A DNA stretch of 53,114 nucleotides, taken from contig NZ_VOSS01000091.1 of assembly GCF_007997035.1 (NCBI RefSeq), positions 1 to 53,114 of the forward strand. Direction: 5' to 3'. Each line of letters opens with the position of its first letter. Position 1 is the stretch's first letter. Positions 44,116-47,700 of the stretch are shown here, piece by piece. The DNA comes from Ralstonia sp. TCR112 (GTDB taxonomy: Bacteria > Pseudomonadota > Gammaproteobacteria > Burkholderiales > Burkholderiaceae). The translations under genes and the position numbers were made by a program. The notes under the pieces are model-generated. The model saw nothing but the letters and a program-made list of their open reading frames with translations, had not been told where the DNA came from and did not search any database.

Positions 44116-44783
44116 ATGAGCACGCCCGCCCTCGCTGCCGCTTCCGCTGCTGTTTCCGCTGCCGTTTCCTCTGCGGCACCCGCAATCCAGTCCATCGCAC
44201 CGCTGCGTGATTTCGTGACTGCGCTGTCGCGCCTGCTGGATCAGCAGCCGACCGAAGCCGAGATCCTCTCGCGCGCCGGAGCCCTGCTCGGCGCGCTTGT
44301 CGCCCGCGACGACTGGTTGCCCGCTGAATACGCGCAGCCGCACCCCGAGCACTTCCAGCAGTTCCTGCTGCATGCCGATTCCGGCGAGCGCTTTTCCATC
44401 GTCAGCTTTGTCTGGGGCCCGGCCAGCGCACCCCGATCCACGACCACACCACGTGGGGCCTGATCGGCATGCTGCGCGGCGCTGAATACTCGCAACCGTT
44501 CAAGCTCGACGCGCAAGGCAAACCGGAACCCGACGGCCCGGCCATCCGCCTGGAGCCGGGCGCTGTGGAACACGTCTCGCCGCGCGTGGGGGACATCCAC
44601 CGCGTGCACAACGCCTTTGACGATCGCACGTCGATCAGCATCCACGTCTACGGCGGCAACATCGGCGGCATCCACCGCTCCGTCTATACGGAAGACGGCG
44701 AACGCAAGCCTTTCGTCTCCGGCTATTCGAATACCCATCTGCCCAATCTCTGGGACCGTTCCAAGGACACGCCTGCATCATGA
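44116..44783 (+). pseudogene. Cysteine dioxygenase-family thiol dioxygenase, single-base frameshift
   Basis: Cupin non-haem iron enzyme that oxidises a thiol to a sulfinate. The first about 100 residues read MSTPALAAASAAVSAAVSSA to SIVSFVWGP. The rest reads in another frame from GQRTPIHDHTTWGLIGMLRG to NLWDRSKDTPAS. One G is missing at about 44421 (CCCGGCC, expected CCCGGGCC), so the shift falls just before the two iron His of the PIHDH motif. The third His is in DIHRVHNAF. WGPGQRTPIHDH with Gln rather than Arg chemistry suggests a 3-mercaptopropionate-type dioxygenase (inference). Corrected length is about 222 residues. It overlaps the rhodanese gene by ATGA. Confidence 0.86.
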
Positions 44784-46418
44784 GCACCACCATCGACGCC
44801 ATCGAATCGCCGGTCGCTGCACCGCTGGCCGAAACCCACGTGCCGACACTGGCGTATGCCGACGTGCGCGCCGCCCTGCTGGCCCGCAAGGAGATCGCGC
44901 TGGTCGACGTCCGTGAGGAAGACCCGTACGCACAAGCGCACCCGCTGTGGGCAGCCAACCTGCCGCTCTCCCGGCTGGAGCTGGAAGCGTGGTCGCGCAT
45001 TCCGCGCCGCGATACGTTGATCGTGCTGTACGGCGTGCACGATGGCGTGGACCTCGCTCCGCGCGCGGCGGCCAAGCTGGCTGAACTGGGCTATACGCGC
45101 GTGTACCTGCTCGAAGGCGGCCTCGATGGCTGGCGCGCGCCGGCGGCGAAGTGTTCCAGGACGTCAACGTGCCCAGCAAGGCCTTTGGCGAATACGTGGA
45201 AGCGCATCGCCACACGCCGTCGTTCAGCGCGCAGGAAGTCAAGGCGCTGCTTGATGCCAAGCGCGACGTGATGATCGTCGATGCGCGCCGCTATGAAGAA
45301 TTTCAGACCATGAGCATCCCCACGGCGACGAGCGTGCCGGGCGCCGAGTTGGTGTTGCGCATCCGCGAGCTGGCGCCGGACCCGAACACGCAGGTCATCG
45401 TCAATTGCGCGGGGCGCACGCGCAGCATCATCGGCACGCAATCGCTCGTGAATGCCGGTATTCCCAACCCGGTGGCGGCACTGCGCAACGGCACCATCGG
45501 CTGGCTGCTGGCCGACCAAGTGCTGGACCATGGCGCCAGCGCCGTCACCCGCAGGACGTGTCTGCCGAAACGCGCGCGCAGGCCCAGGCCGATGCACGCG
45601 CCGTGGCCGAACGCGCCAACGTGCCGCGCATTGCGCTGGCTGAGGTTGCCAAACTCGAGACACCGGACCGCACGGTCTACAAGCTCGACGTGCGCACGCC
45701 CGAGGAATATGCCGCCGGCCACCTGCCCGGCTTTGCCAGCGCGCCCGGCGGCCAGCTCGTGCAGGAAACCGACCACACGGCTGCCGTGCGCGGCGCCCGC
45801 ATCGTCCTGGCCGATGACGACGGCGTGCGCGCCGACATGTCCGCCTCGTGGCTCGCGCAAATGGGCTGGGAGGTCTATGTCGTCGATCCGATCGACGCCA
45901 GCCAGCGCAACGTCACCGGCACGTGGCAGACGCCCGCTCCACAATCTCCGGCCGTGCGCACGGTCGACGCCCGCGCCTTGGCCGGCTGGCTGGAAGCGGG
46001 CGACACCGCCGTCATCGACGTCACGCGCAGCGCCAACTACGTTGCGCGGCATATTCCGGGGGCGTGGTTTGCCGTGCGCTCCGACTTGCCCGCGGCGCTG
46101 GCGCGCATCCCGGCGGCCCGCCGCTACGTGCTGACGTGCGGCTCCAGCCAGCTCGCCCGCTTTGCCGCCGCCGACCTTGCCAAGCTGACGCAGGCCGAGG
46201 TGTGGGTGCTCGACGGAGGCACCGCAGCATGGGTGGCCGCCGGTCTGCCCGTTGAAGCCGGCGAGACCCGCCTGGCCTCACCCCGCATCGACCGCTACCG
46301 CCGCCCGTATGAAGGCACGAGCGCGCCGCGCACCGCCATGCAGGCCTATCTCGACTGGGAGTTCGGTCTGGTGGAGCAGCTGCGGCGCGACGGAACGCAC
46401 GGGTTCCGGGTCATCTGA
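44780..46418 (+). pseudogene. Four-domain rhodanese-like sulfurtransferase, two single-base frameshifts
   Basis: About 546 residues after correction, with four rhodanese folds. Domain 1 (VDVREEDPYAQAHPLWAANL) has LYGVHDG where the active loop should be, so no Cys. Domain 2 (VIVDARRYEEFQTMSIPTAT) has VNCAGRTRSIIG with an active Cys. Domain 3 (YKLDVRTPEEYAAGHLPGFA) has LADDDGVRADM, no Cys. Domain 4 (AVIDVTRSANYVARHIPGAW) has LTCGSSQLARF with a Cys. Bases are missing at about 45138 (between domains 1 and 2) and 45540 (before domain 3). Domains pair as inactive-active twice. It overlaps the dioxygenase gene, suggesting it handles the sulfite or sulfane product. Confidence 0.87.
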
Positions 46419-46812
46419 GGGGCCGCAAAGGTTCGGAACGTCACGCTTGGCGTTCTGAACTCGACACTTGGGGTTCCAACACGCCACGCTTGAGGTTCCA
46501 GACGCCGCGCTTGAGGTTCCGAACTCCATCGGTGGCGTTCGGAACGTGACCGGTGGCGTTCAGAACCTCGATATCTCGTAGTCCGAACGCCAACATTGAG
46601 GTTCTGAACGCCATGCATGGGGTTCCAAACCCCGCACGCCGGGTTCGTCACCCCGAACGTGAGGTCTGGAACCCCGTGATTGGCGTCTCAAACTCCACAT
46701 ACGCCTCCGCTCACTTGCTTGCTAACGCCGCTCACAACGAGCGATAACAAAACTCGTTTTGCGCATAAGCCGGCGTTGAGTAGCATCGGGACTTCCTCGC
46801 AGAGGTTCCGGC
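46419..46812. other. Gene-free stretch containing a tandem repeat array
   Basis: 394 bases between the rhodanese and EamA genes. Most is the 21-bp repeat array at 46431-46693. The last 100 bases include an inverted repeat, AACGAG at 46736-46741 and CTCGTT at 46753-46758, and probably the EamA promoter. Short open frames across the array in either strand are only the repeat translated into seven-residue periods (for example EVLNAMH, GVPNPAR). I do not call them genes. Confidence 0.7.
46431..46693. repeat. Array of 13 degenerate 21-bp units with palindromic GTTCnGAAC core
   Basis: Unit cores start at 46431, 46452, 46473, 46495, 46516, 46537, 46558, 46581, 46601, 46622, 46643, 46664 and 46685, giving steps of 21, 21, 22, 21, 21, 21, 23, 20, 21, 21, 21 and 21. 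The core is GG, any base, GTTC, any base, GAAC, often followed by a C-rich stretch and CTT. Five cores are perfect GTTCnGAAC, and most others differ by one or two bases. The spacing equals two helical turns, so every core faces the same side of the DNA. There are no unique spacers, so this is not CRISPR. Confidence 0.85.
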
Positions 46813-47700
46813 ATGTCCCCCTTCATCGCCCTGTGCCTGCTCATCACCTACGTGGTGTGGGGCACAACGTATCTCGCCATCCGCTTTGCGCTGACCGATC
46901 TGCCGCCCTTTCTGATGATGGGCTCGCGTTTTCTGGCTGCGGCGGTGCTGCTCGCCCCGCTGGTCATCCTGCGACAGCGCAAGCAGCCCGAAGAGCGGCC
47001 GACCTTGCGCCAGGTCCGCAACTGCGCATTGATCGGCGCGTTCATGCTGGTGGGCGGCATGGGCATGACGGCGGTGGCCGAGCAGACCATCTCGTCGGGT
47101 GCGACCACGGTGATGATCGCGTCGATGCCGCTGTTCTCCACGCTCTGGACGCTGCTGGCCGGCGGCCGCCTGCGTGCCTATGAGATTGGCGCGATTGCGC
47201 TGGGCAGCATCGGGATTGCGGTGCTGTTTCGTGGCGCGGAGTTCCAGGCCAGCACGGTCGGCGTGCTCGCGCTGACCGCGGCCATTGCGTCATGGTCGTT
47301 CGGCTCGCAGCTCTCCAAGCGCATCGACATGCCCAAGGGCATGACGGCGTTCGTATTGGAGATGGCCTTTGGCGGCGTGGCACTCGTCGTGCTCAGCCTG
47401 CTCACCGGCGAAGCGTGGCCCAGCCACATCGGCATGCATGCCGCGCTCGCATGGGGCTACCTGGTGGTGTTCGGCTCGGCCATCGCGTTCACCGCCTACA
47501 TGGCGCTGGTGGAACGCGTGTCCACCGTCATGGCAACAAGCTACGTGTATGTGAACCCGCCCATCGCCCTGCTGATGGGCGCATGGCTGGCGGATGAAGT
47601 GGTCGCGCCGCAGACGCTGGGCGCAACGGGCATCATCCTGGCGGCCGTGGTGGTGCTGACGGCTGGGGCTACGCGGGCGGCGCGGCGGGCGGCTGCTTGA
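46813..47700 (+). CDS. EamA/DMT-family permease
   Basis: 295 residues with about ten membrane helices in two EamA repeats; an inner-membrane metabolite exporter of the drug/metabolite transporter superfamily, like YedA/RhtA. The opening MSPFIALCLLITYVVWGTTYLAIRF is typical. Other segments: FLAAAVLLAPLVILRQRKQ, GGMGMTAVAEQTISSGATTV, SWSFGSQLSKRIDMPKGMTA and SYVYVNPPIALLMGAWLADE. AGAGG precedes the start. A clear terminator follows 20 bases after the stop. The substrate is unknown. Confidence 0.92.
   Translation: MSPFIALCLLITYVVWGTTYLAIRFALTDLPPFLMMGSRFLAAAVLLAPLVILRQRKQPEERPTLRQVRNCALIGAFMLVGGMGMTAVAEQTISSGATTVMIASMPLFSTLWTLLAGGRLRAYEIGAIALGSIGIAVLFRGAEFQASTVGVLALTAAIASWSFGSQLSKRIDMPKGMTAFVLEMAFGGVALVVLSLLTGEAWPSHIGMHAALAWGYLVVFGSAIAFTAYMALVERVSTVMATSYVYVNPPIALLMGAWLADEVVAPQTLGATGIILAAVVVLTAGATRAARRAAA

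Follow-up and report, generated by a model that had tools for sequence, protein, structure and literature searches.

A 13-unit array of GTTCnGAAC palindromes in Ralstonia as a candidate row of sites for a dimeric DNA-binding protein

Tandem cooperative operators, such as the met boxes of MetJ and the paired ARG boxes of ArgR, are made of two to five degenerate palindromic sites placed in tandem at a fixed helical spacing, and the centres of paired ARG boxes lie about 21 bp apart. Plasmid iterons and centromere arrays (Rep iterons, ParR/parC) consist of repeats of about 20-22 bp that lie on one DNA face and nucleate protein assembly. CRISPR arrays combine regularly spaced repeats with variable spacers. 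REP/BIME and REPIN elements are short palindromic intergenic repeats with many copies per genome (PMC3116915).

Here we analyse an array in a stretch of 53,114 nucleotides from Ralstonia sp. TCR112 (contig NZ_VOSS01000091.1), hereafter the window. We report the array and its period, the constraint on its individual sites, how it is distributed in Ralstonia, and where else the core and spacing recur among other lineages; the core, arms and step of the array are now defined. No description of these arrays was apparent among titles and abstracts from openly accessible journals, and a published account may exist. G and L numbers are our labels for genomes and loci.

The array and its surroundings in the window

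An array of 13 palindromic GTTCnGAAC cores had been predicted from the letters of the window, and it was confirmed by a dynamic-programming chain, by TRF and by comparison with shuffled sequences (Table 1). The chain recovered successive steps of 21, 21, 22, 21, 21, 21, 22, 21, 21, 21, 21 and 21 bp. The spacing is thus mostly of 21 bases, as predicted, but its range is narrower than the 20-23 bases first given, all steps being 21 or 22. TRF called a 21-bp array spanning 46431-46566, and the lag-21 self-identity is 0.55. The exact core GTTCNGAAC has six copies in the whole window, every one of them within the array and inside 179 bp; the count of exact cores in 100 dinucleotide shuffles averaged 0.72, with a maximum of 3. 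Pairs of cores at exactly 21 bp (at most two mismatches) numbered six in the window and none in the shuffles. Exact GTTCnGAAC is found in 6 of the 13 cores, and the others match five to seven of the eight fixed positions. The array is strand-symmetric, and intact Ralstonia units show a wider, weaker palindromic preference, approximately TGRS-GTTCnGAAC-SYCA, followed by a freer 4-bp linker. The HrpB-type box, TTCG-N16-TTCG, was set aside as an identity for the repeat because the array spacing is one base longer.

Table 1. Positions of the array, its units and the two flanking genes in the window
Feature	Position	Strand	Detail
Array	46431..46693	.	13 units, core GTTCnGAAC, 21/22-bp steps; chain, TRF, shuffles
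Unit 1 core	46431..46439	.	GTTCGGAAC, exact
Unit 2 core	46452..46460	.	GTTCTGAAC, exact
Unit 3 core	46473..46481	.	degenerate, 5/8
Unit 4 core	46495..46503	.	GTTCCAGAC, 6/8, preceded by 22-bp step
Unit 5 core	46516..46524	.	GTTCCGAAC, exact
Unit 6 core	46537..46545	.	GTTCGGAAC, exact
Unit 7 core	46558..46566	.	GTTCAGAAC, exact
Unit 8 core	46580..46588	.	AGTCCGAAC, 6/8, preceded by 22-bp step
Unit 9 core	46601..46609	.	GTTCTGAAC, exact
Unit 10 core	46622..46630	.	GTTCCAAAC, 7/8
Unit 11 core	46643..46651	.	GTTCGTCAC, 6/8
Unit 12 core	46664..46672	.	GTCTGGAAC, 6/8
Unit 13 core	46685..46693	.	GTCTCAAAC, degenerate, 5/8
Rhodanese-domain ORF (PF00581)	45405..46418	+	stop 12 bp upstream of array
EamA-family transporter (PF00892)	46813..47700	+	start 119 bp downstream of array

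The best NCBIfam match of the EamA gene is YedA, with 256 bits and below the cut-off of 270. Downstream of the array and up to the start of EamA (46694-46812) the sequence is conserved, with a divergence of 0.079 over eight species against 0.169 at the four-fold sites of EamA, and holds the inverted repeat AACGAG/CTCGTT. On the other side, the rhodanese gene (44780-46418) appears as two ORFs, owing to a frameshift or an assembly error; it is one long ORF in G005, G006, G008, G010 and G011.

Arrays elsewhere in Ralstonia and in other lineages

A two-core pattern was found in 15 of 61 genomes, all of the same genus (15 of its 16, with none in G005), and in none of 45 other genera. A phylum-wide draw of 398 genomes returned the genome of the window and one genome with a single match, while the backward control matched six genomes; one match among the 397 others is at chance level. 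Allowing at most two mismatches, we counted 67 matches in the two-contig relative G010 against 3 in the control, 40 against 2 in G002, 18 against 2 in G009, and 8 against 1 in each of G005 and G006. The few matches in the last two (8 each, against 67 in G010) perhaps represent decayed arrays.

Of the 67 forward matches in G010, the 50 listed form 11 arrays, so that G010 has at least 11; all 11 lie between called genes, as judged with a simple codon-score ORF caller that also served for the arrays of other taxa classified below. Neighbours of Ralstonia arrays include ureE/ureC, glgB/glgX, a gene for an MCP and one for an SDR. Those neighbours of the G010 and window arrays that can be named are metabolic, transport and chemotaxis genes, with no replication or partition locus among them. 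The ureE array sits between ureC and ureE and probably lies inside an operon, which fits poorly with a strict roadblock.

Other repeated elements were seen near some arrays. A multi-copy family of 157-aa proteins, without Pfam or NCBIfam match (L232:3812-4282, L233:3826-4296), has 7 of 30 fetched copies near an array of 12-13 units and several more near a weak, degenerate chain. A neighbouring gene shared among arrays was considered as the cognate gene and rejected, with no Pfam or NCBIfam match above cut-off in the two array-adjacent families scanned; the 157-aa family was also rejected in that role, as copies occur without clear arrays too. An interspersed repeat of about 220 bp (L228:3709-3930) has at least 50 matches in G010 (40 of 56 candidates scored). 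At 4 of the 11 G010 arrays one or two copies are no more than 600 bp away, and the repeat also lies near arrays in L224, L230 and L231. In L225:3417-3698 of G010, GTTCnGAAC alternates with GCTCnGAGC as a 42-bp pair, so that the two arms have changed together and the palindrome is kept.

Outside Ralstonia, a three-core pattern found at least 119 stretches in a collection of 84,980 species. The matches listed include, by record title, Nostoc and relatives, Saccharothrix, Treponema, Bacteroidales, Pedobacter, Planctomycetaceae, an Acidobacteriota MAG and a Thiosymbion symbiont. The symbiont, which belongs to the same phylum as Ralstonia, has 14 two-core matches, so Ralstonia is not the only genus of its phylum with the pattern. 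In 19 genomes of other lineages, picked because arrays had already been found there, 728 core pairs lie at 20-22 bp against 9 for the backward pattern, a single control core. When 23 genomes including these 19 were searched at spacings of 23-40 bp, only 4 core pairs were found against 7 in the control. At the original spacing in 23 genomes, GTTDNHAAC, in which the two letters flanking the middle base are restricted to others than those of the core, gave 60 pairs and its control also 60; other centres are thus not enriched in bulk, although some 21-bp arrays do have such centres. Core and step are common to Ralstonia, Nostoc and relatives, Saccharothrix (22 bp), Treponema, Bacteroidota and others, with differing spacers; in Nostoc, mean spacer identity is 0.88 within arrays and 0.40 between arrays. 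Since spacers are unlike between arrays and between lineages, core and step recur without them.

We classified 55 non-Ralstonia arrays, drawn from loci L026-L105 (L106-L144 were not included) and lying more than 300 bp from the ends of their locus. Of these, 46 are intergenic, one is unclear and eight overlap a called gene. The intergenic ones lie between tandem (26), convergent (14) or divergent (6) genes, and the median distance over the 55 is 109 bp to a gene 3' end and 278 bp to a 5' end. In Saccharothrix and Actinokineospora (L067, L103, L118, L131), some arrays form two inverted halves, and four of the seven classified arrays of this group lie between convergent genes.

The window array had no blastn match in phage and plasmid collections. 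Among viral sequences, 48 stretches carry one core pair each, and in contigs such as L182, L171 and L153, GTTCnGAAC-like repeats spaced by 11 bp (one helical turn) lie near or inside a reading frame; these are perhaps origin iterons. An origin of the arrays in phages or plasmids was rejected, given the absence of blastn matches and the different nature of the 11-bp phage repeats.

Step length, persistence and constraint on the sites

Across 11 Ralstonia loci we counted 125 steps of 21 bp, 16 of 22 and 1 of 20. These loci were hand-picked after their step strings were known, leaving out the recent 42-bp array L225, the paralogue L232 and any orthologue of a locus already counted. With gain and loss of a single base equally likely, 16 steps of 22 bp against 1 of 20 would have a probability of 0.0003. 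An earlier automatic clustering into seven clusters, which had merged loci sharing another repeat, gave seven 22-bp steps and no 20-bp step. The mean step of 21.1 bp corresponds to 10.55 bp for each turn, a value near the helical repeat of B-DNA. Arrays of other taxa keep to 21 bp with few exceptions (22 in Saccharothrix), and single-base departures are 25 of +1 against 13 of -1, with Nocardia showing the opposite.

Several Ralstonia loci have the same layout, in some cases mirrored: 12-13 units in which the 22-bp steps follow one another at intervals of four or five. The gaps between successive 22-bp steps are 5, 5, 4, 5, 3, 2 and 5, with a permutation P of about 0.03 that is marginal and comes from the hand-picked loci. 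This regularity could be inherited from one ancestral array. We found no clear similarity between units of the same index at different loci (28 pairs; lowest P 0.005 and 0.02), on which basis dispersal of arrays as blocks was rejected; saturated spacers could, however, hide common descent of the loci.

The gap between the rhodanese and EamA genes contains an array (at least six cores, at most one mismatch) in 13 of 16 genomes of the genus, that of the window included, and only one or two cores are left in G001, G005 and G007. EamA is kept over its length in G005 and G007, and the G001 contig ends within it; in G002 the array is present, yet only about 80 bp at the EamA start were matched. At the ureE locus, copy number ranges between species from none to 15 units (15 genomes, G000 having no ureE match). 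Chains stand well above the background score of at most 3.8 in 9 of the 15: G001 has 15 units, G003, G010 and G013 have 13 each, G002 has 8, G014 has 7 and G009 has 3, and degenerate chains of 7 and 6 units are found in G005 and G015. G008 is borderline, and five genomes have no array. The chains used for unit counting penalised 20-bp steps more than 22-bp steps, and the 11-locus step count used equal penalties. As arrays were lost or shortened in some lineages and two genomes have few matches, no individual array is essential. Random variation in both copy number and phase among strains, together with an absence of protein binding, had been named as a pattern favouring neutral slippage; copy number does vary between species, but phase hardly does.

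The outer GT/AC letters of the core are those most strictly kept. At the window locus they vary at 3 of 52 positions among eight species, against 56 of 146 in the spacers (Fisher P 2.6e-6). The corresponding counts are 12 of 52 against 68 of 145 among four species at ureE (P 0.003), where the constraint is weaker, and 0 of 52 against 24 of 146 at L233 (P 0.0008), a set of five rows that represents three distinct genomes because two records duplicate G015 and G003. All these counts are from chosen genomes with alignable arrays (8 of 16 at the window locus and 4 of 15 at ureE). Four-fold sites vary at 77 of 183 positions in EamA, 80 of 185 in the rhodanese gene and 39 of 106 in ureE, so spacer variation is similar to that of four-fold sites and the outer GT/AC is far below both. 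The inner TC/GA columns vary at 16 of 52 positions (window), 18 of 52 (ureE) and 6 of 52 (L233), nearly like the spacers, which places the strict constraint on GT/AC and not on the whole core. Of the core, originally proposed to be constrained where the rest is not, the outer letters are constrained and the inner ones only weakly so.

Divergence at the window locus falls off in a roughly symmetric way around the dyad, and a weight matrix of the arm preferences is palindromic. Across the six symmetric spacer pairs there is no consistent excess of complementarity (z 1.13, -2.85, -1.84, 2.13, -2.25 and 3.33) in a set of 183 unique spacers, which are not independent because orthologous arrays are included. 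Some spacer pairs do show raised mutual information, most of them linker pairs (4-7, 5-8, 6-7, 7-8) and one of them the pair 11-12. Spacers at one locus are common to different species, with point changes. Mean spacer identity in Ralstonia is 0.53 within arrays and 0.43 between arrays, and such diversity of units within arrays indicates that the cores were not kept alike by recent copying.

Possible functions and comparison with known systems

We consider it fairly probable that the array is a row of sites for a dimeric DNA protein that binds cooperatively. As in an operator array, site positions are constrained while the linker is free, and the helical phase is fixed. The step, the symmetric constraint and the absence of consistent covariation favour a row of dimer sites on one DNA face, and spacer pairs of mixed sign, with folding that is indifferent to the unit, are the pattern expected from independent half-site recognition. 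Taken together, the sequence comparisons suggest recognition of half-sites by a putative dimeric protein along one DNA face, and not coding, hairpins or neutral slippage. The originally proposed repeated binding of a protein along one face gains support from the kept GT/AC, the free spacers, the two-turn step and the lack of covariation.

A DNA-binding protein probably coats such arrays. Each dimer would sit on one dyad, reading the GTTCnGAAC core, with outer GT/AC most strictly kept and arms near TGRS/SYCA in Ralstonia. Dimers placed every two helical turns would lie on the same DNA face and be able to touch, and touching dimers would cover some 260 bp of intergenic DNA with protein. The indifference of the arrays to their neighbouring genes and their intergenic placement suggest a chromatin-type role, such as a domain boundary or an intergenic patch for silencing or nucleoid anchoring, rather than control of a single adjacent gene. 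We infer the protein dimer, its cooperativity and this chromatin-type job alike, with local chromatin as the most likely role.

The main competing explanation is that an enzyme makes or maintains the array: a sequence-specific enzyme would recognise GTTCnGAAC and duplicate 21/22-bp steps, and the array would be kept as its substrate and not for a host function. Such an enzyme would fit the patchy occurrence, in unrelated lineages, of genome-wide families that differ in their spacers, the high spacer identity in Nostoc makes those arrays look recently expanded, and a layout of about 13 units with 22-bp steps about five apart recurs at several Ralstonia loci. We nevertheless regard this origin as unlikely, because Ralstonia arrays lie at orthologous sites, differ by point changes and keep their outer core letters, because block similarity between loci is not clear, though saturation could mask it, and because a Pfam scan of 10 neighbour genes in G010 revealed no shared enzyme gene. 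Were the array such a substrate, it would reveal how arrays of 21 bp arise. A hairpin formed by RNA or by a single strand at the 3' ends of genes (a terminator, mRNA stabiliser or attenuator) would account for arrays whose start or end is no more than 25 bp from a stop codon (L226, L228, L229 and L231 of G010; L011 of G000), for the shorter distance to 3' than to 5' ends outside Ralstonia and the excess there of convergent over divergent flanks, and for predicted folding that is stronger than in spacer-letter shuffles (z -1.45 to -6.32, 14 tests). Column-shuffled spacers, however, give the same folding energy (z -1.06 to 1.13; 14 tests, 7 loci), so there is no unit-specific pairing. Together with the inconsistent spacer covariation, the strictest constraint on the outer GT/AC, and the absence of a terminator-like site (GC stem plus T tract) within 46350-46850, this makes a hairpin distinctly improbable; Rfam gave no match at gathering score in the window.

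A neutral tandem repeat decaying after ancient slippage would explain the variable copy number at ureE, the remnants at the window locus in 3 of 16 genomes and the inner core columns that vary nearly like spacers. It is contradicted by an outer core that varies far less than spacers and four-fold sites, and both the near-absence of core pairs at 23-40 bp compared with 20-22 bp and the 16 to 1 excess of 22-bp over 20-bp steps in Ralstonia argue further against it; we find it very unlikely. A dimeric regulator of the EamA gene had also been proposed, and the position of the array upstream of EamA, where it persists in most genomes of the genus, agrees with an operator array dedicated to this gene. 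Similar arrays adjoin unrelated genes, however, the array is separated from EamA by a distinct conserved block (divergence 0.079), and the array is nearly lost in G005 and G007 with EamA kept, and kept in G002 with its short EamA match. A dedicated EamA regulator is thus unlikely, and we give this explanation of the array hardly any credence. Finally, 21 bases equal seven codons, and 2 of 48 frames over eight species are free of stops, as a coding heptapeptide repeat would require; each of the six frames of the window array has one to four stops and the 22-bp steps shift the frame, so the seven-residue coding period that had been noted is rejected at this locus, and we assign it next to no probability.

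To return to the row of dimer sites, each dyad is under purifying selection, the period is a physical one and the feature recurs in several lineages, which points to a DNA-binding system. It is conceivable, as a tentative extension, that two-turn GTTCnGAAC arrays form an unnamed class of chromosome element found across phyla, the footprint of a widespread but patchy nucleoprotein system that would assemble short filaments in many intergenic regions. Binding of one kind of protein in unrelated bacteria, if it occurs, would make this a new class of chromosome-organising or silencing element.

Among known systems, CRISPR arrays share regular repeats and variable spacers with the arrays described here, which differ in their degenerate 9-bp core, their 12-bp spacers with palindromic arms, and spacers common to species at the same locus. 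REP/BIME and REPIN elements are likewise short, palindromic, intergenic and multicopy; the arrays differ from them in having about 13 degenerate, helically stepped units and no consistent covariation of the kind expected of stem-loop arms. The Pfam scan of 10 neighbour genes in G010 showed no RAYT gene. The window array lacks the covarying stems of REP elements and the features that we tested of neutral VNTRs, intrinsic terminators and coding repeats. Iterons and centromere arrays resemble it in having repeats of roughly 20-22 bp in phase; unlike Rep iterons and ParR/parC, the arrays have a palindromic core, occupy many intergenic genome sites and, for the window array, have no plasmid blastn match. 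The operators of MetJ and ArgR similarly have degenerate palindromic units in tandem at a fixed helical spacing, whereas the arrays have about 13 units with the core GTTCnGAAC, lie by unrelated genes (at least 11 in G010) and occur in several lineages. By analogy, the array would work like tandem operators and iterons.
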